DNA of 64,000 nucleotides. Origin: Longibaculum muris. GTDB taxonomy: Bacteria; Bacillota_I; Bacilli_A; Erysipelotrichales; Coprobacillaceae. The stretch lies in the NCBI RefSeq assembly GCF_004343035.1, contig NZ_SMCQ01000005.1, forward strand, positions 1 to 64,000, given 5' to 3'. Shown here in pieces: positions 1 through 17,962 of the stretch. Every line of letters starts with the position of its first letter. The stretch's first letter is position 1. The notes under the pieces are model-generated. The model was not told the origin of the DNA, ran no database searches, and worked only from the letters and a program-made list of their open reading frames with translations. A program made the translations under genes and the position numbers.

Positions 1-16
1 ACAATATTAGCTACAT

Positions 17-48
17 AAAAAAATGAAGTTGTCTTATCGACAACTTCA
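17..48 (-). terminator. Terminator of the peptide-maturation operon
   Basis: A 10-bp perfect stem (24-33 with 39-48, loop of 5) is followed on the minus strand by seven T residues. It lies just after the stop of the last gene of the operon, so the operon appears to end inside the window. Confidence 0.85.
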
Positions 49-66
49 ATAATAATTTTAATTATT

Positions 67-927
67 TCACCTGTCTACTTGACAGGGGCGGTTCACTTCT
101 TTTAGTTTAATTATTTTATTTATAATTTCATTTACATATATATTTGAATTTGATAAATACATTCTCACAAATAATAATCTTATATCTAAAATTAATCTTT
201 GAAATTCAAAAACAAAATCTTCCAATATACGTTTATTTTCTCTGCTACTCTCATCCATTAAAATATTAATTAAATTCACTCTACAAGCTAAATAACCTCC
301 CGAAAAAAAAGTAGAGTTCATTTCAGCAAATATATTCTTATCAGTATTTTCTTTTATAGATTTGATAAATAAGTCAAATTTCTTATTATAATTTTCTAAA
401 GAATTAGGAATAGTATTTGCAATTTCTTTTGTAGTTATATTCTTTTTCCCTTTTTTACATTTAAAAATTTTATATACATATACGTCATCTTTATATATTA
501 ATTCTAAATTTTCTAATTTACTCTCAATTTTTATTGGTTGTATCAAAGGAATAAACGAATCCTTTAAATAAAGCTCTTTATTCCTTTGTTTCACAAGTAT
601 GTAGTGATACTTTTTCTTTATTTTATTAGATACTTCAAAAAAATCATGATAATTTAAATAGGATAAGGGTGAATGAACTATAATCGGTAAATCATGTTCT
701 AGATTTTCTTTATTTATTTCAACAATACAATATCCTAAAGAAGATAAGCCATCTTTCATTATATCCATAATGGGTGATATAATTGCTCCCGTTTTTTTAT
801 CATTATCAATTTTTAAAATTTTTTCTGATAAATATAGCGATTTTTCTTGAATATTCTTATCACCAAAATATTCAATTAATGTCCCACTAAAACATGAGGT
901 ATATAAAGAATTACTTTGTTTATTCAA
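67..927 (-). CDS. BtrH-like papain-fold protein (possible acyltransferase or peptidase)
   Basis: A 286-residue protein, last gene of the peptide-maturation operon. The N-terminus has SCFSGTLIEYFG (Cys12), which resembles the nucleophile region of BtrH N-terminal domains, where Cys is followed by a short helix. About 95 residues later comes YHYILVK (His108) and then LYLKDS (Asp123), the usual His and Asp spacing of C39/BtrH-type folds. In butirosin biosynthesis BtrH moves an acyl group from the carrier protein BtrI to an aminoglycoside; a carrier-like protein is also encoded in this operon, so acyl transfer to a peptide is a reasonable inference. Processing of the peptide is the alternative. 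The start is a TTG overlapping the stop of the permease gene by 4 bases. The C-terminal half is not recognised. Confidence 0.6.
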   Translation of the reverse strand: MNKQSNSLYTSCFSGTLIEYFGDKNIQEKSLYLSEKILKIDNDKKTGAIISPIMDIMKDGLSSLGYCIVEINKENLEHDLPIIVHSPLSYLNYHDFFEVSNKIKKKYHYILVKQRNKELYLKDSFIPLIQPIKIESKLENLELIYKDDVYVYKIFKCKKGKKNITTKEIANTIPNSLENYNKKFDLFIKSIKENTDKNIFAEMNSTFFSGGYLACRVNLINILMDESSRENKRILEDFVFEFQRLILDIRLLFVRMYLSNSNIYVNEIINKIIKLKEVNRPCQVDR

Positions 928-1709
928 TACGTATCAAACGCTCCTTCCCTTCTAATGATTTTTAAAGCTCTACCAAATAAAAAAGAACCAATCATTATCC
1001 AAAATAAATTAATACATATATATCCTAACCATAATTCCCAACCTACTGTTAATTCTAGATATATTTTTCTACATATCTCTATTCCCAAACTGTATGGTAT
1101 TAAAGCGACAATAATATTATCCAATGGCTTCATTACATTTGATATAAATATTAGTAATGTTTGAACAATTAATATTAAACTACTTGATTTTTTCTCTTTC
1201 AAAACAATAGTGCTTAATAATAATCCTATTCCATACATACCAATTATTGCTGGTATATTTAAAATTATTGAAACAAAAAAGAATACAATATCTCTAATTG
1301 TTAAATTAGTTAAAAAAAACATCAAAATAATAAGTGCTAATATAATTAAAAAATTCGTTAATAAATTAATAATTAATTTAATAAAGTATAATATTTGTAT
1401 TTTAAAACTACTTTGCATTTTTTGCTCTAAAATACCTTCGCTTGCTTCCGAAGAAACTATTGATGTAGAAAATCCAAGTGCTAATGAAGAAAACTGCCAA
1501 AACAAAAAACCAATAAAAAACAAAATATTTCCATCATTTGAAGATATATCATAATATATCTTTAATGGTGATCCCTCATTAAAGAAAAATGCAATCAAAA
1601 ACACACCTACTATCATTATAAAATCACTGATCATTCCTACTTTATATTGCAATCTGGATAAAAAAGTAATCCTTAATTCTATTTTAAGTAATTCATAGTA
1701 TTTTTTCAT
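924..1709 (-). CDS. ABC-2 type transporter permease
   Basis: A 261-residue membrane protein with about six hydrophobic segments, the size and layout of ABC-2 family permeases that export peptides or antibiotics. The first segment starts near residue 25 (IMIVGVFLIAFFF) and the last lies near residue 230. It overlaps the end of the ATPase gene by 17 bases and has a good ribosome site (AAGGAG) inside that gene, so the two are translationally linked. It probably forms the export channel for the matured peptide with the preceding ATPase. The ATPase and permease are separate polypeptides and no C39 leader protease domain is attached, so leader removal must come from elsewhere, probably the S8 protease in this operon. 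Confidence 0.85.
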   Translation of the reverse strand: MKKYYELLKIELRITFLSRLQYKVGMISDFIMIVGVFLIAFFFNEGSPLKIYYDISSNDGNILFFIGFLFWQFSSLALGFSTSIVSSEASEGILEQKMQSSFKIQILYFIKLIINLLTNFLIILALIILMFFLTNLTIRDIVFFFVSIILNIPAIIGMYGIGLLLSTIVLKEKKSSSLILIVQTLLIFISNVMKPLDNIIVALIPYSLGIEICRKIYLELTVGWELWLGYICINLFWIMIGSFLFGRALKIIRREGAFDTY

Positions 1710-2418
1710 TTTCTTCTCCTTGATTTTCTATAAAAATTTCAGTTAAACTATCTACCTCTAATTTTGAATCTATTGTTTTTATGACTTGACCATTTTTTAA
1801 AAACAAATATCTTGTGCTTATATCCGCCAAAAAACTTAAGTCATGCGATGATATCACTAAAACTTTCCCTCTTTTTTTAGACATATCTATTAAGATATCT
1901 TTTATTAAATTAATATTCTCTATATCTAATCCCTCTGTTGGTTCGTCTAAAATAAGATATTTACAATTACAACAAAAAACAGCTAATAGTTTAACTATTT
2001 TTTTCTGACCTGTAGATAATTCTTCAACTTTTCTTACTAACTCATTTTCAAATTTAATATATTTTAAGTAATAATTAAGATTTTCTAGTATTTGCTTTTT
2101 CTTAGTTCCTTTCAAAATTCCATAGTAAATAATATTATCTTTTGCTGTATTTTTATATGACAAATCTCTTTCATTTGTGGATTGATATGCAACATTATTA
2201 TGAGCCCATTCTAAATAATCAGATTTATTTTCATTATTGACATGTATTGATCCCCCATTTATATCTAAGATACCACTGATTACTTTCATTAATGTTGTTT
2301 TTCCAGCACCATTATTACCAACCAATGCAACAATCTGGTTATCTTCAAGTGAAAAATTAATTTCTTTTAATATACGATGTTTTTTTATATCCTTTTGAAT
2401 GTCTTCAACTATTATCAT
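1693..2418 (-). CDS. ABC transporter ATP-binding protein
   Basis: A 241-residue nucleotide-binding subunit. It has a Walker A motif (GNNGAGKTT, about residues 34-42), a degenerate signature LSTGQKK, a Walker B followed by the catalytic Glu (YLILDEPTEGLD) and a switch His (VISSHD). The start at MIIVEDIQ is preferred over an ATG four codons upstream because GGAGGC lies 4 bases before it. It pairs with the ABC-2 permease directly downstream. Dedicated export of the operon's peptide, or self-immunity, are the likely roles. Codon use is as AT-rich as the rest of the operon. Confidence 0.88.
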   Translation of the reverse strand: MIIVEDIQKDIKKHRILKEINFSLEDNQIVALVGNNGAGKTTLMKVISGILDINGGSIHVNNENKSDYLEWAHNNVAYQSTNERDLSYKNTAKDNIIYYGILKGTKKKQILENLNYYLKYIKFENELVRKVEELSTGQKKIVKLLAVFCCNCKYLILDEPTEGLDIENINLIKDILIDMSKKRGKVLVISSHDLSFLADISTRYLFLKNGQVIKTIDSKLEVDSLTEIFIENQGEENEKIL

Positions 2419-2485
2419 ATATGCCTCCATAAATTTATCTGATTTTCTTCTTTAACTATACTATTTCAAAACGTAATTACTATTC

Positions 2486-4271
2486 CTATCTTTCACAAAA
2501 ATATTCAATCATATGATTATATATTGATTCAAATTTTCCATTGATTAATATTGGCTTACCTAATCTTTTATATAATTTTTCCTTGACAATTTCAATTTCA
2601 ATATCTGATAAGCTCTTTTCTTCTTTGTCAAATATTACCCAATCACTATTTTTTTGATACGGATATAAAATCAAAGCTCCAACATATGAATTTAGATAAT
2701 TTTCTAAATATAAAATAGTACGTTTAATGAAATTTATATCATCATTACTATTAATGACTAAATATATCAAATCCGGTTGACTAGCTATTAGTAAAGATTC
2801 TTGTTCAAAAGAAAGAAAATTTAAATTATTAAAAGAATATGGTATTGTCTGTGATTGAGTCCCCAAAATCATTATCTCACTATCTTTTTCTATTGAGGAT
2901 AATAACTTATTATATGTCAAAATTTGTTTATAAATATTGCCATTTAAGTCAATACCATAGCCAGATGGAAACATTTTATCAAATCCAAAAAGATATGAAG
3001 ATGGTTCGGTTCCAAATTGTGAAAACTTATATCCACTTTTTTTTAATTCTCTTCTTAATCCAAGTTGTAAAGTAAATTTCCCCTGTCTTGGTGATGTCCC
3101 ACAAATTGCAACAGTTGGTATTGATAACACATTTAAACTTCCAAGATTATTATCAATAACATTAAAATTCTTATATAATTCGTTAGAACTAAATACATTT
3201 AATCCAGATAAAATATTTCTTTTTACCAAGTCGTTATACTTTTTTAAATCGTCAAAACAATAAATATTTTTTCTATTTACATAACAATAATCTAATAAAT
3301 ATTTAGTATAATCATAATTAAAAATTTGATTTATTTTATCTAAACGTCCAACTATAAGGGTATCAAAATCATTATATTTTGATATTTGATTTATATTAAA
3401 GAGTTTAAAAGCACCCAAAATTCGCTTATTGTTTACTGTTCTCTCATTATAATAATTATTAACATCAAAAATATATTTTATATTAAAATCTAAAAGATCT
3501 TTATTTTCTAACAAAACAATTGTTTCCTTATTTAACGGAAATATAGCAGCATCATTTATATAGTCAATATTTGCATTTTGTTCAATACTTTCTATTTCGA
3601 ATTCCATTATATTGATGGCATCCTTTTTCAATTGCTTAAAAATATCTTCAAACTGATAATTTAAGTTTAATAAATCTAATATTTTTATCGTAATGTATGG
3701 CGATGCAAAACTCGATCCGCTTACATTTTTATAATTTCCATCTTTCCATGGTAATAATTGTTTGCCACCAAATCCTAATATATTAATATTAGAATTATTT
3801 AGAACAATATAATCATTTATTTTTTTACATTTTAAAGAGAACTGAACTCCTATTACTTCTGGAAGGCAAGCGGGATATGAAATTGCCCCCTCATTATCAA
3901 AAGAAGATACAATAAATATTTTTTCTTTGTATAATAATGAACATATTTTTTTTATTTCTTTTTTCATACTCGGACAAATTATTCCACTACTTATATGAAT
4001 CAAATCTATATCTTTCATATTCATATATATATAATAATGTATCATATAATTTTTCTTCGTTTGTAAAAGAATTTTTTCCATATATATTTACTGTATATAT
4101 TTCTGTATCAAATGTATTATTCTGTATTATATAAGTTATAGCAGTCCCATGTCCAATATAGTCTTCGAAAGGATTATATTGATTAAATAAATTAATTCTT
4201 TTTATTCTATTCAAATTAATATTTTTGTTATTGATATCAACCCCTGTATCAATAATAACAATCTTTCTCAT
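2486..4271 (-). CDS. Frameshifted subtilisin-like (S8) protease fused to a peptide-maturation P-loop-like domain
   Basis: Two overlapping reading frames together encode one protein. The first (start ATG 4271, ribosome site AAAGGAG) carries the catalytic Asp in IIDTGVD and His in YIGHGTA. The second (ending 2486) carries the oxyanion-type segment SSFDNEG and the catalytic Ser in SGSSFASP. The frames meet at an 11-base AT tract near 4028, where gain of one AT unit, or loss of one base, would rejoin them. After the protease domain (about 240 residues), the second part continues to a C-terminal domain with GTSPRQGKFTLQL followed by QFGTEPSSYLFG. From memory this pattern belongs to clostridial peptide maturation proteins (TIGR04066-like). 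The protease could remove the leader of the small peptides. The gene may be phase-variable, decayed, or affected by a sequencing error. Confidence 0.75.
4023..4033. repeat. AT dinucleotide tract at the protease frameshift
   Basis: Five and a half AT units (11 bases) lie exactly where the two frames of the S8 protease overlap. Expanding the tract by one unit would join the Asp/His part to the Ser part, so strand slippage here could switch the gene on and off. Confidence 0.7.
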
Positions 4272-4297
4272 CAAATTATCTCCTTTCCCCCCAAAAA

Positions 4298-4317
4298 TTT
4301 ATAAAGTAACTAAGGAT
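4298..4317 (+). repeat. Left arm of a perfect 20-bp inverted repeat
   Basis: This arm is the exact reverse complement of 4488-4507. The two arms enclose 170 bases that contain the 27-residue precursor gene and its ribosome site. Identity stops abruptly on both sides and no target-site duplication is visible. Confidence 0.85.
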
Positions 4318-4368
4318 ACATAAAAAAATCTAATTAATTTTATTTTCTACTATACTTATAATTACTTT

Positions 4369-4452
4369 TTAGCTACACTTATTATTGCCTTCACCATATA
4401 AAACAACACTGTTATTTGTTGATTTAGTTGGTTTAACTAATTTCTTTTTCAT
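4369..4452 (-). CDS. Candidate 27-residue ribosomally made precursor peptide
   Basis: A small gene with a strong ribosome site (AGAGGAG, 7 bases before the ATG). The product begins MKKKLVKPTKS, is rich in Asn and Ser in the middle, and ends LYGEGNNKCS with one Cys next to last. The basic KKKLVKP start recalls short clostridial bacteriocin-like precursors found with acyl-carrier-related maturation proteins (CLI_3235 type; recalled, not searched). It lies between the carrier-like gene and the protease gene and inside a perfect inverted repeat. A role as substrate of the maturation system is inferred from size and position. With only one Cys, thioether ring formation of the usual multi-Cys kind is unlikely. 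Confidence 0.6.
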   Translation of the reverse strand: MKKKLVKPTKSTNNSVVLYGEGNNKCS

Positions 4453-4487
4453 AAAGATATCTCCTCTAAATTTTAATGTAATTGTTA

Positions 4488-4507
4488 ATCCTTAGTTACT
4501 TTATAAA
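4488..4507 (-). repeat. Right arm of a perfect 20-bp inverted repeat
   Basis: Exact reverse complement of 4298-4317. The arm overlaps the space between the stop of the carrier-like gene and the ribosome site of the small peptide gene. Confidence 0.85.
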
Positions 4508-4510
4508 GTC

Positions 4511-4741
4511 TTACTTTAGCATATCCTGAATCAGACAAAGAAAATCATTAAATGAATGTAATTCCCTAAAGTCTAAATTTTGCTCGAATAAATCCAATAA
4601 AAATTCTTTTTGAATTTCAGCAATTAAAACAACCAATTGCATAGAATCAATATTTAATTTTATTTTTTTATTTTCATCTGTTATATAAATCCCTGACAAT
4701 TTAAAGATATTTATTAATGTTTTTTCAACTTCATCTTCCAT
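4511..4741 (-). CDS. Acyl carrier-related protein of a peptide maturation system
   Basis: A 76-residue acidic protein with the carrier-protein core. NIDSMQLVVLIAEIQKEF contains Ser33 in a DS motif, the expected 4'-phosphopantetheine attachment site, followed by the amphipathic helix II. The length matches stand-alone carrier proteins. It differs from the fatty-acid ACP in lacking the DSLD context (DSMQ here). No ketosynthase or adenylation gene is nearby, so the acyl or aminoacyl group would have to come from general metabolism or an unlinked ligase. Clostridial families of 'acyl carrier-related' proteins occur beside precursor peptides, which fits this setting. It may hand a group to the BtrH-like protein of the same operon. 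Start has AGGAAA upstream. Confidence 0.72.
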   Translation of the reverse strand: MEDEVEKTLINIFKLSGIYITDENKKIKLNIDSMQLVVLIAEIQKEFLLDLFEQNLDFRELHSFNDFLCLIQDMLK

Positions 4742-4770
4742 GTCTCTTTTTCCTTTCTATATTATGTATT

Positions 4771-4869
4771 TTATTTTTTAGGTTTATAATATCCCATTGG
4801 AGAACAGCAGTAATCTGATTTAATTACATATCCAACAATCATAGCTGTTATTTTTTTTAACAATTTCAT
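4771..4869 (-). CDS. Small AgrD-like peptide (32 residues), first gene of the operon
   Basis: This short gene has one of the strongest ribosome sites in the region (GGAAGGAGG, 7 bases before the ATG). The product starts MKLLKKITAMIVGYVIK, an amphipathic basic helix, followed by SDYCCSPMGYYKPKK. A hydrophobic leader, a Cys, an aromatic pair and a basic Pro-Lys tail resemble cyclic-lactone autoinducer precursors of the AgrD type. No agrB-like gene lies in the operon, so processing would need a protease encoded elsewhere or the S8 protease here. The other option is that it is a second substrate of the maturation system. No paralogue is seen in the window. Confidence 0.62.
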   Translation of the reverse strand: MKLLKKITAMIVGYVIKSDYCCSPMGYYKPKK

Positions 4870-4894
4870 ATTTTTACCTCCTTCCTTTTTCTGT

Positions 4895-4923
4895 ATTATA
4901 TTACAAAAAAAAAACGTTTTTAA
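4895..4923 (-). promoter_or_regulatory. Promoter of the peptide-maturation operon
   Basis: A consensus -10 TATAAT (4900-4895) follows a weak -35 TTAAAA (4923-4918) at 17 bp. The weak -35 suggests dependence on an activator, which fits the direct repeats next to it. Confidence 0.6.
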
Positions 4924-4925
4924 TT

Positions 4926-4955
4926 ATTATCATCGAGCGTTAAAAAATTATCATC
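4926..4955 (-). promoter_or_regulatory. Two 9-bp direct repeats 12 bp apart (activator site candidate)
   Basis: GATGATAAT occurs twice on the minus strand (4955-4947 and 4934-4926) with exactly 12 bases between. The second copy ends 2 bases before the -35. The 9-12-9 layout is that of LytTR-domain regulators such as AgrA, ComE and PlnC. The repeat sequence itself is not one I can assign to a known regulator. Confidence 0.55.
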
Positions 4956-5287
4956 AAATGTCGTTTTGACATAATAATATTATTTATTTTTGTTCTAAAT
5001 ATATATTTCTTTTATCATTCTAAACTATATTCAAAAAATATTATAAAAAAAGATCTGTAACAATATATTTATGAGTAACTAAATATATCAGGGGATTTTT
5101 TGAGCACTTCATTTTATTGGGGTGCTCTTTCCTTTCACTTTATTGCTGATTTCAATTATTTTGGGGTAGATACTCTGTTTCCCTTTTTTATTATTCTTAA
5201 TTGTTTTATTATTTAGTTATAAAATCTACAGAAAGATAAAAGGATAATTATCTCCCCTCCGACAGTTCGATTAATTATCCTGTTCCA
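4956..5287. other. Gene-free AT-rich stretch with two hairpins
   Basis: No credible gene is seen here. A 6-bp stem, GAGCAC with GTGCTC (5102-5127), is followed by a short T run on the plus strand. A 9-bp stem, GGATAATTA with TAATTATCC (5242-5280), has a 21-base loop and a T-rich exit on the minus strand. Both may be ends or terminators of the transposon relics next to them. Confidence 0.4.
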
Positions 5288-5490
5288 TTGAACAATACGA
5301 TAATAATAAAATTAAACAAAAAAATCAAGTCTATTAATCAATTTAGTTATGATGAAATCATTAATTCAATCAATTTTCATCTTATACATTGTCCAAACTG
5401 TCAATTATCCGATTGGTCAACTCATGCCTACTATTCTAGACACGTTGATTTTTTTAATCGTCGTCATACAGTTCGCATACTCAGAGTGAA
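5288..5490 (+). pseudogene. 5' fragment of a zinc-finger transposon-associated protein (DUF6431-like)
   Basis: From a TTG start the frame reads about 65 sensible residues: a region with HLIHCPNCQLSDWSTHAYYSRHV and then RRHTVRILRV. A single CPxC pair followed by HAYYSR and a RILRV strand is typical of the N-terminus of transposon-associated DUF6431-type proteins. The expected second Cys pair after RILRV is missing, and the sequence then runs into the antisense of another transposase fragment. It is therefore truncated by a rearrangement. Assignment is from pattern memory only. Confidence 0.5.
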
Positions 5491-5647
5491 CAGGGGAAAC
5501 ACAAACAGGACAAATATCATCATGAGATGTTGCCTTTACATAAATAGTAACTGTATCGTTATCATCTTTCCAGTCATAAACAATGAAATCATCACCAAAA
5601 AGTTTTTCATTCAAATCGATCTTATTATATTTCATAAACATCACCAT
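5470..5647 (-). pseudogene. 5' fragment of an ISL3-type transposase
   Basis: The minus-strand frame begins MVMFMKYNKIDLNEKLFG and reaches ICPVCVSPVHSEYANCMTT, the first half of an ISL3-family zinc-binding domain (CPxC, then HS.Y). After about 60 residues it passes into antisense of the neighbouring plus-strand fragment and stops. Only the N-terminus remains, out of an expected 400 or more residues. The two relics are joined head to head near 5460-5490. Confidence 0.55.
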
Positions 5648-5701
5648 CCTTACATCTCTATTATACCCTAATACCCAAATATAAGAAATAATATCCTAAT
5701 A

Positions 5702-5728
5702 AAAACCACGTCTAAAAGGCGTGGTTTT
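5702..5728 (-). terminator. Right-end hairpin of the IS200-like element
   Basis: A 9-bp perfect stem with a 9-base loop follows the tnpA stop. It can serve as the transposase recognition hairpin and as a transcription terminator that protects the element from read-through. Confidence 0.7.
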
Positions 5729-5834
5729 CTCTGCGGCTATAAGCCTTTGTTACTTGCTCGCGTCTCAAGGCGCTGCTTTCACTTCGTTCAAGCTACCGCT
5801 CTTGACTCTCGCTATCCCTCAAAGGGATTTTTTG

Positions 5835-6335
5835 CTATTTTTCTTTCTTCCCTTTTTTCTTCTTCTCTTTCTTGATTTCCTTTTCTTCAAATGGATCCTT
5901 GTATTCTTTCACACTCAGTTTATCCATCGCTATATCATATGCTTCTTGCTCCCTTATATATTTTGCGACTGTTTGATCATTTAGTCCTACTGTACTTACA
6001 TAATATCCTTCTGCCCAAAAATGTCTATTCCCATATTGATATTTTAAATTGGCATGCCTATCAAACATCATCATTGCTGACTTCCCTTTGAGATATCCCA
6101 TAAATGATGATATGCTTTCTTTTGGTGGTATCATCACCAGCATATGAACATGATCTATCATCAAGTGTCCCTCTATTATTTCTACTCCTCTATATCTGCA
6201 TAATCTTCTCAATATTTCTCCCAAGTCTTCTCGATATTGATTATATATCGCTTTTCGTCTATACTTAGGTGTGAACACAATATGGTATTTACACATCCAT
6301 TTTGTGTGTGCTAAAGAATTCGCTTTTTTAGCCAT
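5835..6335 (-). CDS. tnpA: IS200-family transposase TnpA
   Basis: A 166-residue HUH single-strand transposase. It has KYHIVFTPKYRR near the start, the metal-binding HUH motif in IDHVHMLV, GYLKGKSAMM, and the catalytic Tyr in VAKYIREQE. The start MAKKANS is chosen because GGAAAGGTGA lies just upstream; an upstream ATG (6383) would place the ribosome site inside the gene. All key residues are present, so it looks active. The last 20 residues are a run of Lys and Glu (KKEKKKKGKKEK), longer and more basic than usual for the family. Confidence 0.9.
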   Translation of the reverse strand: MAKKANSLAHTKWMCKYHIVFTPKYRRKAIYNQYREDLGEILRRLCRYRGVEIIEGHLMIDHVHMLVMIPPKESISSFMGYLKGKSAMMMFDRHANLKYQYGNRHFWAEGYYVSTVGLNDQTVAKYIREQEAYDIAMDKLSVKEYKDPFEEKEIKKEKKKKGKKEK

Positions 6336-6520
6336 AGTCAAATCACCTTTCCTTTCTTTTAATGATAGCTTGAACAACTTCATTATACCGGAAAGGTGAT
6401 ACTACTGTATAACTTTTTATTTCTCCACCCGCATAGCAGGTGGTTTTTTGTTTCACACATTTCATGTGTTCAACTGACTAAAGTCTATTTGTTCAAATTT
6501 TCAATTTGAACAGTATAAAC

Positions 6521-6547
6521 AAAAAACAGTACAATTTCTTGTACTGT
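6521..6547 (-). terminator. Terminator after relA
   Basis: ACAGTACAA pairs with TTGTACTGT (6526-6547, 4-base loop) and is followed on the minus strand by six T residues. A second hairpin (GTTCAAATT with AATTTGAAC, 6491-6511) lies just beyond. Confidence 0.85.
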
Positions 6548-6601
6548 TTAGATAGTTATTCTACCCATAACCGAGTAAGAACCGAAAATCTATAGTGGTT
6601 C

Positions 6602-8818
6602 TTAATGAATAACTCTTTTAATATCATAAATACCTTGAATCTTATTTAAATTATCAATAGTCAATTGTAGCAGCTCAGCATTTTCTACCGATAAAGTTAA
6701 CTTAATATGCGCTTCCATATCTTGAATACCTGCATTAATATTTAAAATATTGACTTTCACTTGTCCTAAAACAGTAATAATATCATTCAATAAATTAGGA
6801 CGATCCAATCCACATATTTCAATATCAACTTTAAAACGTTTTTCTGTAATATTTGTATAATCCCAATAAACATCTATTAAACGACCTTTTTCTGCTCCTT
6901 TGATATTAGGACAATCAGCTCTATGCACTTTAATCCCTTGTCCTTTAGAAACATATCCAACAATTGGATCACCTGGAATAGGATTACAACATTTTGATAA
7001 TTGAACTTTCAAACCATCTACGCCACTCACACTAATTCCTAAACTACCATTTGTTCTTTTTTGATTCTTAATAGCGTTATTGTTTTTCTTTAACATCTTA
7101 GAAAGATTATCAAAGAAGCCAGTATGATTAGGTGCAACTTTATCGATTAACGTTGCAGCCGTTGCTTGTTTTTTTCCAATAACTAACAAAATATCATCAA
7201 AATTCTTTGCTCCAAAAGAACCAAAATAAGATTTATAAGTTTCTGGATCTAAATATTTCTTTTCATCTAATTCGCGTTTACGAATTTCTTCTTTTAATAG
7301 TTTTTTACCTTCTTCAATCGCAGCTTTTTGCGTTTCAGCATCTTTCTTTGTAATATATTGTCTGATCTTATTACGGGCTCCAGCTGTTTGTACAAACTTG
7401 AGCCAATCTTCACTAGGACCAGAATTTTTATTTGTTTTTATTTCACATACATCACCTGTTTTTAACTTTGTATTAATAGGAACCATCACATTATTAACAA
7501 TTGCTCCAACTGCATGATGTCCAACTTCAGTATGAATACGATATGCAAAATCAATTGGTGTTGCCCCATTTGGTAATTCTACAATTTTCCCTTGGGGCGT
7601 CATTACATAAACATTCGCTTCAAAAATATCACGTCTTAATGAATCATAATATTCTTTAGCATCACCATCTTTAATTTCATCGCTTAAAGTAATAAAATCA
7701 CCCAACCATTGTAACTTATCAACAATATCTTTTTGTTCTTGTTTAGATGAATAATCTTTTCCCTCTTTATAACGCCAGTGTGAAGCAACCCCACGTTCTG
7801 CAAGTTCATCCATTTCTTCAGTTCTTATCTGAATTTCAAAGATATGTCCACCCTCACCAATGACAGCTGTGTGCAGTGATTGATACATATTAGGTTTTGG
7901 CATCGCAATATAATCTTTAAAACGACCTGGTAATGGACGATAATGGTCATGAATGATACCTAAAACCTCATAACATTTCATTTTATCTTGTAAAATAATA
8001 CGTAAGGCATTTAAATCATAAAGTTCATCAAAACGTTTATGTTTAATAACCATTTTTTTATAAATACTATAAATATGTTTAGCCCGTCCTTTAATGCGAT
8101 ATTTGATATGATGTTCATCTAATAAATCCTTCACTGATTGCATCATTTTATCAACAGACTCTTTACGTTCACTACGTTTTTGTTCTAATAAATCAGAAAT
8201 TTCCTGATAGGCTTTGGGATCTAAATAATATAAACATAAATCTTCTAACTCAATACGAATATCATTAATACCTAAACGATGAGCAATCGGCGCATAAACT
8301 TCCAACGTTTCACGTGCTATACGTTGTTGTTTATCTGGACGCATATATTGAAGGGTACGCATATTATGCAAACGATCAGCTAATTTAATTAAAATCACAC
8401 GTATATCTTTAGCCATAGCAATATAGATTTTACGATGATTTTCTGCATAAATATCTGATTCATCCTTAAATAACATCTTATTAATCTTAGTAACACCTTC
8501 AACTAAGCTTGTAATCTCCTCACCGAAACGTTCAACCATTTCTTCCCGTGAGACATCACAATCTTCCATGACATCATGCAATAATCCAGCCGCAATTGTG
8601 GTTGGACCAGTTTGTAAAGTTGAAAGAATGTATGCTACCCAAATAAGATGAATGGTATAAGGTTCCCCACTTTTACGTTTTTGTCCCTCATGTTTTACCA
8701 TAATAAAATCATAAGCATTTTTAATCAAATCAATGCTTTCTTTTTTGGTAATATAAGTTGAACAGATTGCTAAGACATCATCAAATGTCACTTGATCGTG
8801 TTTTCCTTTAATTTCCAT
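6602..8818 (-). CDS. relA: Bifunctional (p)ppGpp synthetase/hydrolase
   Basis: A 738-residue RSH stringent-response enzyme that makes (p)ppGpp from ATP and GTP or GDP and also hydrolyses it. The N-terminal hydrolase domain has the HD pair in LLHDVMED (residues 81-82) and ADRLHNMRT. The synthetase domain follows (KGRAKHIYSIYKKM, MYQSLHT, FEIQIRT, ASHWRYKEG). Next come a TGS domain (VYVMTPQGKIVELPNGATPIDFAYRIH split across about 400-430), a zinc-finger-like segment with KCCNPIPGD, and a C-terminal ACT domain. Length and order match RelA/SpoT of Firmicutes. It lies downstream of recJ and apt, the same order as in Bacillus. AGGAGG precedes the start. Confidence 0.97.
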   Translation of the reverse strand: MEIKGKHDQVTFDDVLAICSTYITKKESIDLIKNAYDFIMVKHEGQKRKSGEPYTIHLIWVAYILSTLQTGPTTIAAGLLHDVMEDCDVSREEMVERFGEEITSLVEGVTKINKMLFKDESDIYAENHRKIYIAMAKDIRVILIKLADRLHNMRTLQYMRPDKQQRIARETLEVYAPIAHRLGINDIRIELEDLCLYYLDPKAYQEISDLLEQKRSERKESVDKMMQSVKDLLDEHHIKYRIKGRAKHIYSIYKKMVIKHKRFDELYDLNALRIILQDKMKCYEVLGIIHDHYRPLPGRFKDYIAMPKPNMYQSLHTAVIGEGGHIFEIQIRTEEMDELAERGVASHWRYKEGKDYSSKQEQKDIVDKLQWLGDFITLSDEIKDGDAKEYYDSLRRDIFEANVYVMTPQGKIVELPNGATPIDFAYRIHTEVGHHAVGAIVNNVMVPINTKLKTGDVCEIKTNKNSGPSEDWLKFVQTAGARNKIRQYITKKDAETQKAAIEEGKKLLKEEIRKRELDEKKYLDPETYKSYFGSFGAKNFDDILLVIGKKQATAATLIDKVAPNHTGFFDNLSKMLKKNNNAIKNQKRTNGSLGISVSGVDGLKVQLSKCCNPIPGDPIVGYVSKGQGIKVHRADCPNIKGAEKGRLIDVYWDYTNITEKRFKVDIEICGLDRPNLLNDIITVLGQVKVNILNINAGIQDMEAHIKLTLSVENAELLQLTIDNLNKIQGIYDIKRVIH

Positions 8819-17711: not shown

Positions 17712-17945
17712 TTCAATAAAAAACGCCTCTTAGTATAAAACTAAGAGACGAAAGATTCCGCGGTACCACTCTTGTTGATATATCCAAAGATATATCCCCT
17801 CTTGTCTTTAAAGCAGACCTACTCAATATCCTACTGATTTCAGATATTGCTCTCCAAAGTGCGGTTCATTTAAACTTGTATACTAACCTCACACCAACGT
17901 TAGCTCGCTTCATACTCATTTAAACTACTCTCTTTTTCATTGAGT
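17712..17945 (-). promoter_or_regulatory. T-box leader riboswitch with terminator
   Basis: Read on the minus strand, the leader has AAGAGAGTAG (Stem I, AG and E-loop side), GCGAGCTAACGTTGG and GTGTGAGG of the distal Stem I loops, then TGAACCGCAC with the specifier region, CTTTGGAG, and the T-box core GTGGTACCGCGG (17758-17769). A strong terminator follows (10-bp stem, 17724-17750, then a T run). The UUUAAA pairing places the specifier just after GAA. CGC (Arg) fits best because a purine follows it, but other registers cannot be excluded. Uncharged tRNA would favour transcription of the transporter-aminotransferase operon. It fills most of the 411-base gap between the genes. Confidence 0.93.
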
Positions 17946-17962
17946 TTGTTGATATGTCTAGT

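Follow-up and report, generated by a model that had tools for sequence, protein, structure and literature searches.

A putative agr-controlled peptide-maturation operon, probably acquired and now inactive or switched off, in Longibaculum muris

A seven-gene operon at a contig end

We analysed the first 64,000 nucleotides (the window) of contig NZ_SMCQ01000005.1 (C5) from the 3.17 Mb genome of Longibaculum muris (GCF_004343035.1), in which a minus-strand operon runs from position 4869 to 67, at the start of the contig. Consistent with a first-pass annotation of this DNA, the operon comprises seven genes, all on the minus strand and most with good ribosome-binding sites. Read from the promoter end, these encode the small peptide P1, an acyl carrier protein (ACP)-like protein, a second small peptide (P2), a subtilisin-like (S8) protease joined to a TIGR04066 domain, an ABC ATPase, an ABC-2 permease and a BtrH-like protein (Table 1). 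The operon is a CLI_3235/TIGR04066/TIGR04069 (SacP23-type) set for a ribosomally synthesized and post-translationally modified peptide (RiPP), minus the radical S-adenosylmethionine (SAM) enzyme and with the subtilisin fused to TIGR04066.

GC content in the operon is 23.3%, versus 30.8 ± 1.1% elsewhere in the window. Upstream lie an ISL3-like transposase remnant (5417–5647) and an IS200-like transposase (5835–6383), both named from their translations; the low GC and these neighbours fit the expectation for an acquired island. The single promoter proposed earlier has one promoter-like counterpart upstream of P1, but such sites are equally common in shuffled sequence.

Table 1 Features of the operon and its flanks
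Feature	Position	Strand	Notes
Insertion sequence (IS) end; terminal TGAACCGCCCC (minus-strand reading) at 85–95	1–95	.	Repeated copies in genome
Terminator hairpin, belonging to the IS, not the operon	24–48	-	Terminator scan; inside repeated 1–95
BtrH-like papain-fold candidate	67–927	-	Open reading frame (ORF) list, motif positions
ABC-2 type permease, 261 aa	924–1709	-	PF01061, six hydrophobic segments
ABC ATPase, 245 aa	1693–2430	-	PF00005, 4e-27
Protease gene, second frame: rest of S8 with catalytic Ser, then TIGR04066 = DUF1611/DgcN-like	2486–4081	-	
Protease gene, first frame: catalytic Asp and His (IIDTG, GHGT)	3987–4274	-	Likely ATG start at 4271
(TA)5 tract at frame break	4023–4032	-	No other AT dinucleotide tract in the 64 kb window reaches 5 units
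Inverted repeat around P2 gene, left arm	4293–4317	.	20 nt perfect core
P2, RiPP precursor MKKKLVKPTKSTNNSVVLYGEGNNKCS, 27 aa	4369–4452	-	Precursor profile match
Inverted repeat around P2 gene, right arm	4488–4512	.	
Acyl-carrier-like protein, 76 aa, Ser33 in NIDSMQ	4511–4741	-	Ser invariant in homologues
P1, AgrD-like autoinducer precursor (putative) MKLLKKITAMIVGYVIKSDYCCSPMGYYKPKK, 32 aa	4771–4869	-	Homologues directly after agrA–agrC pairs
Promoter-like site TTAAAA-17-TATAAT	4895–4923	-	10/12 match
LytTR/AgrA-type operator half-site ACGCTCGATGA	4930–4940	-	Predicted; paired at 21 bp spacing
LytTR/AgrA-type operator half-site ACATTTGATGA	4951–4961	-	Predicted; paired at 21 bp spacing

At the other end, bases 1–95 recur as 100% identical copies at C6:1-95 and C17:62615-62709 and as a 95% copy on C39, and the flanks of these copies diverge from base 96 on. 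This IS end probably explains why the contig starts here. The BtrH-like gene retains 277 native codons followed by 9 final IS-derived codons (VNRPCQVDR), and the hairpin previously taken for the operon's terminator sits within the IS end. The operon had also been described as complete; it is not, with the BtrH-like gene cut at base 95 and the protease frame broken. The S8–TIGR04066 gene is split into two frames, the catalytic Asp and His falling in one and the Ser in the other. All three residues of the subtilase Asp-His-Ser triad are encoded, but not in one polypeptide, and the annotated protease fusion is not one open frame.

A SacP23-type gene set with a fused core protein

A protein search of genome contigs with the window sequence alone returned no relatives. 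Scanning with a three-sequence alignment, one genome per species, yielded 79 loci with an S8–TIGR04066 fusion, distributed over Firmicutes, Spirochaetes, Gemmatimonadota, Latescibacterota, KSB1 and other groups. Their neighbourhoods hold a carrier protein in 68 and a radical SAM protein in 45 of the sequences scanned, along with exporters, and a family of ~330 aa with weak BtrH_N similarity at 40 loci. Plasmid searches with the fusion and with the BtrH-like protein found none. Within the order, the TIGR04066 model matched 4 of 295 genomes, one of them weakly.

Two described clusters share most of this set. The SacP23 cluster of Paenibacillus polymyxa #23 has, as in the window, a CLI_3235-type precursor, TIGR04066, a TIGR04069 carrier, a subtilisin-like protease and an ABC transporter, but it encodes the protease and TIGR04066 separately and includes a TIGR04068 radical SAM enzyme; the role of TIGR04066 there was guessed as immunity (PMC10731318). 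The window operon instead starts with an AgrD-like gene, joins protease and TIGR04066 in a fusion and has no radical SAM gene. The sactipeptide-like cluster of Roseburia intestinalis L1-82 likewise has TIGR04066, TIGR04069, a subtilase and an ABC transporter, but with a TIGR04068 radical SAM gene and the protease listed as a separate gene (PMC4573289). The cluster in the Erysipelotrichaceae metagenome-assembled genome (MAG) RUG11122 (G259, L007/L033), which is of the same taxonomic order as the window's genome, shares the fusion protein, ACP, KLxKP precursor and exporter genes and has a BtrH-like protein of 368 aa. It differs in having all frames open, a TIGR04463-like radical SAM gene, two exporters that join transmembrane and nucleotide-binding domains (TMD-NBD), and agrB with an AgrD-like ORF upstream. 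The resemblance to clostridial peptide maturation cassettes noted in the first-pass annotation thus holds, the operon being of the TIGR04065/66/68/69 kind without radical SAM; the different set of enzymes it also proposed does not, as this is the known set minus one member and with two proteins fused.

The operon contains no lanthionine synthetase, YcaO, C39 exporter or radical SAM gene, as had been noted from the outset, and it lacks the in-cluster radical SAM maturase that defines a sactipeptide or ranthipeptide. Searching the whole genome with TIGR04068 gave two weak matches only (26 and 18.5 bits, cut-off 500), which we read as housekeeping radical SAM proteins. A maturase acting in trans was rejected, the best genome match resembling a housekeeping enzyme and not a peptide maturase. 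Among Firmicutes relatives whose flanks are complete, almost every one carries a radical SAM gene; loci with the fusion and an ACP but no radical SAM are found in Gemmatimonadota/Latescibacterota and a few Firmicutes. An association of low cysteine number with a missing radical SAM gene is suggestive only, with several exceptions, some of them at contig ends. Beside the fusion system in two relatives, L038 (7356–8960) and L040 (15184–16758), lie large radical SAM-like proteins of 524–534 aa, by eye of the B12-binding type; the L040 precursor has no cysteine.

P2 belongs to a precursor family assembled from small ORFs near carrier-protein genes; its members begin with K-L-x-K-P, carry V-x-L/A-Y in the middle and end in a cysteine-rich stretch. 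The pattern M(K/R)KLxKP...VxLY...C recurs in most Firmicutes and Spirochaetes fusion loci (about 40 related loci). Against a profile built without the window, P2 scored 28.4 bits (E = 3.3e-7), the best of 979 window ORFs and above 1000/1000 shuffles, and its gene lies 59 nt from the ACP gene. P2 had no match to the CLI_3235/TIGR04065 model (cut-off 26 bits), to which the related precursor L047 reaches 19.5 bits. P2 carries one cysteine only, and the precursor core of L035 none. Both tiny peptides annotated earlier are present as ORFs, but they are of two different kinds, P2 a RiPP precursor and P1 AgrD-like. Conservation, on which their annotation had been staked, takes a different form in each: the P2 family at about 40 loci, P1 in three genomes in an agr context. 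Several tandem precursor genes (KxLYKP...VNVY...C) in Treponema MAGs (L027, L028 and L034) make up an unusually rich peptide repertoire, and two Gemmatimonadota/Latescibacterota loci (L068, 8345–8650; L069, 8665–8832), which have no radical SAM gene, encode long precursor-like peptides beginning MQKLIKRRMRSY...VRGY.

The P2 gene is flanked by an inverted repeat whose arms agree perfectly over 20 nt and at 92% over 25 nt; these two arms are its only copies genome-wide, and a strong RNA stem is predicted (fold z −3.9). Such repeats are rarely found around other precursors; this one may mark an invertible segment or an mRNA processing site.

In the family scan, the large protein scored 64 bits for TIGR04066 and 46 bits for a QhpE-type S8 protease. 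The TIGR04066 cut-off of 200 bits was reached neither by the window protein nor by the intact relative L007 (73 bits). All 53 aligned members matched DUF1611 (PF07755) at E ≤ 0.01, the window sequence alone scoring 17.9 bits, below the cut-off of 25. An AlphaFold2 (AF2) model of the second frame (mean predicted local distance difference test, pLDDT, 88.8) gave as best Foldseek matches in the PDB 2obn and 2g0t (DUF1611) and 7xrj (the N-acetyltransferase DgcN), with a shared fold of two domains, Rossmann plus P-loop, that aligns over almost 400 columns. Identity to these is only 11–15%, and the window domain differs from them in being fused to a subtilisin within a peptide operon. The second frame contains a P-loop (GTSPRQGKFT) whose residues, including the Lys, are invariant across the family. 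The carrier protein falls under the cut-off for TIGR04069 (15.7 bits, cut-off 70) and also for PF00550 (14.9 bits), but its Ser33, the expected phosphopantetheine site of an ACP, is invariant in 62/62 homologues. Since the carrier Ser is invariant and the partner domain has a DgcN-like fold, a plausible model is that the peptide receives an acyl group borne by the carrier or by CoA; the carrier-borne acyl transfer suggested earlier keeps that standing, unproven.

A different core chemistry, which we consider doubtful, would give the DUF1611-like domain the role of an NTP-dependent P-loop enzyme in place of an acyltransferase, activating for example the peptide or the carrier, with the ACP as peptide carrier and the subtilisin as loading transpeptidase. 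The P-loop with its invariant Lys and further invariant residues would suit such an enzyme, as would the presence of dethiobiotin synthetase and other P-loop enzymes among the Foldseek matches. These rank below DUF1611, however, and mostly align over about half the length, whereas the longest best matches are DUF1611 and DgcN.

The BtrH-like protein has a candidate triad (C12, H108, D123) with fitting Cys-His-Asp spacing, but the BtrH assignment passed no test: there was no match in Pfam or NCBIfam, including BtrH_N (PF14399), profile comparison with BtrH_N was not significant, and the single-sequence AF2 model had a pLDDT of 38.8. The ABC-2 permease scored 30.0 bits for PF01061 against a cut-off of 26.9.

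P1 and a putative agr-type promoter

P1 scored 1.4 bits against the precursor profile and was rejected as a second RiPP precursor. Its homologues (56, 47 and 40% identical) lie in three genomes of the same family (L126–L128), in each case immediately following an agrA–agrC pair (response regulator and sensor kinase) and, in one, with an AgrB-like gene as well. Like AgrD of agr systems, P1 has a short basic N-terminus, a Cys, an aromatic residue and a YxPK end, but it lacks the usual PxxP tail. Tandem 11-mers like ACGTTCGATGA, spaced by 21–22 bp, are common to the promoters of P1, L126 and L127 (0/500 shuffles equal); the motif was taken from L126, which is therefore no independent test, and was not seen in the promoter of the third homologue, L128. 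Tandem 11-mers at 21–22 bp have the geometry of a LytTR operator. Because its homologues adjoin agrA–agrC and share the tandem operator, P1 is most likely, on sequence grounds, the AgrD-type signal peptide of a circuit controlling the operon.

P1 itself has the operator-like pair with no agrB, agrC or agrA alongside. An orthologous agrC (42%), agrA and an agrB fragment lie on contig C26 of the same genome, with a transposase now 3′ of the kinase. That locus (L131, C26:39240-42454) runs from agrA–agrC through a 38-aa agrB fragment to a broken transposase where relatives carry the P1-like gene. An attempted join of C26 and C5 found no overlap. Several RiPP-cluster relatives likewise have AgrB-like genes nearby, and in one case (L043) the neighbouring peptide is recognised by the AgrD model. 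The genome has, in addition, a separate complete-looking agr locus (L114, C29:2946-4486 and 5405-7326) with AgrD MKKLLITFFLKVVSFMAISGAHSISVLGMYQPKIPDNFNEN, AgrB, two regulators and a kinase.

Elsewhere in the window, a T-box leader (RF00230) at 17741–17949 precedes an apparent amino acid ABC transporter operon.

State of the operon and alternative readings

Taken together, we favour, with moderate confidence, a CLI_3235/TIGR04066-type RiPP operon that was gained horizontally, came under the control of an agr-type quorum-sensing promoter and is at present inactive or turned off. In the intact form, judging from the homologues, P1 would be read first from a LytTR-controlled promoter and would feed back through AgrC–AgrA to turn the operon on. 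P2 would be the ribosomal precursor, its conserved KLxKP...VxLY pattern serving as a presumed recognition element, and the ACP would bear an acyl group on the invariant Ser33. The DgcN-like P-loop domain could then move this group from the ACP to the peptide, probably to the amino end freed by the S8 protease, a step that we propose tentatively and with less than even confidence. The ABC-2 transporter would export the product or protect the cell. In most relatives a radical SAM enzyme would also act on the cysteine-rich end; the operon here lacks the enzyme, and P2 has its single cysteine. Because the S8 gene is interrupted and the BtrH-like gene is cut by the IS, the present genome copy probably makes no finished product.

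Several points weigh against this reading. P1 has no match to the AgrD model TIGR04223, for which the L126 homologue reaches 13.9 bits, under the cut-off of 19. The frame break is known from a single assembly. The reading frames of the other genes are open, and the protein encoded past the break shows good conservation, as would also be expected if the operon were reversibly switched or still partly functional. The ABC-2 transporter may serve immunity instead of export, and acylation of such peptides, although plausible, is so far hypothetical.

Most family members are unbroken (65 full-length ORFs), and after its break the window protein keeps 44 of 47 near-invariant positions (other members, median 97%), implying that the lesion arose recently, can be reversed or is an artefact of assembly. 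A phase-variable operon is an unlikely alternative: slippage in (TA)5 would toggle the protease, the inverted repeat around P2 would be a second switch or an RNA processing stem, and the operon would function in part of the population. The tract sits exactly at the break, the sequence beyond it appears constrained, the stem-forming repeat is unique in the genome, and in a second broken member (L010/L067) the interruption also coincides with a short tandem repeat, no more than a few codons away from the corresponding position. Five units are short for a contingency locus, however, inverted repeats are seldom found around other precursors, and the IS-truncated BtrH-like gene, together with the fragmentary agrB, points to decay. 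Programmed frameshifting as a shared mechanism was rejected because the two broken members require shifts in opposite directions. The locus of the second member, from a rabbit-gut Bacilli MAG (L010; 8300–10200, 13600–14300 and 14253–15620), is a decayed relative in which precursor and protease are each frame-broken at a short repeat and the C-terminal half of radical SAM is fused to an SbcC-like N-terminus.

More improbable still is a functional radical-SAM-free variant, in which the ACP and the DgcN-like domain, with the BtrH-like protein and the exporter, would yield an acylated peptide of a simpler type and the break is an assembly error or is read through: radical-SAM-free loci elsewhere, the single cysteine of P2 and the cysteine-free core of L035 would suit it, but the BtrH-like gene is IS-truncated regardless and nearly every fully flanked Firmicutes relative has the radical SAM gene.

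We retain the acquired, agr-controlled and now inactive or switched-off operon as the better account of the window copy. A broader and rather speculative proposal is that the subtilisin–DgcN fusion and ACP make up the catalytic core for a so far unrecognised class of ribosomal peptides whose acylation depends on a carrier, present in several phyla with or without radical SAM and here quorum-controlled and phase-variable.

The wider family of fused protease/DgcN-like proteins is more interesting than the damaged copy in the window. In sactipeptide-like clusters such as SacP23, the roles of TIGR04066 and TIGR04069 have so far been guessed (immunity, 'modification'); a DUF1611/DgcN-type fold, a fusion to the leader protease in many genomes and a carrier with an invariant Ser across several phyla make acyl transfer a hypothesis that can be tested, and substrates can be sought through the conserved precursor motif. 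Gene sets of this kind, which make a small modified peptide, are widespread and little studied in gut bacteria, and the intact relatives of the window's set suggest that a carrier protein and an enzyme resembling acetyltransferases act on the peptide, a possibility worth testing.

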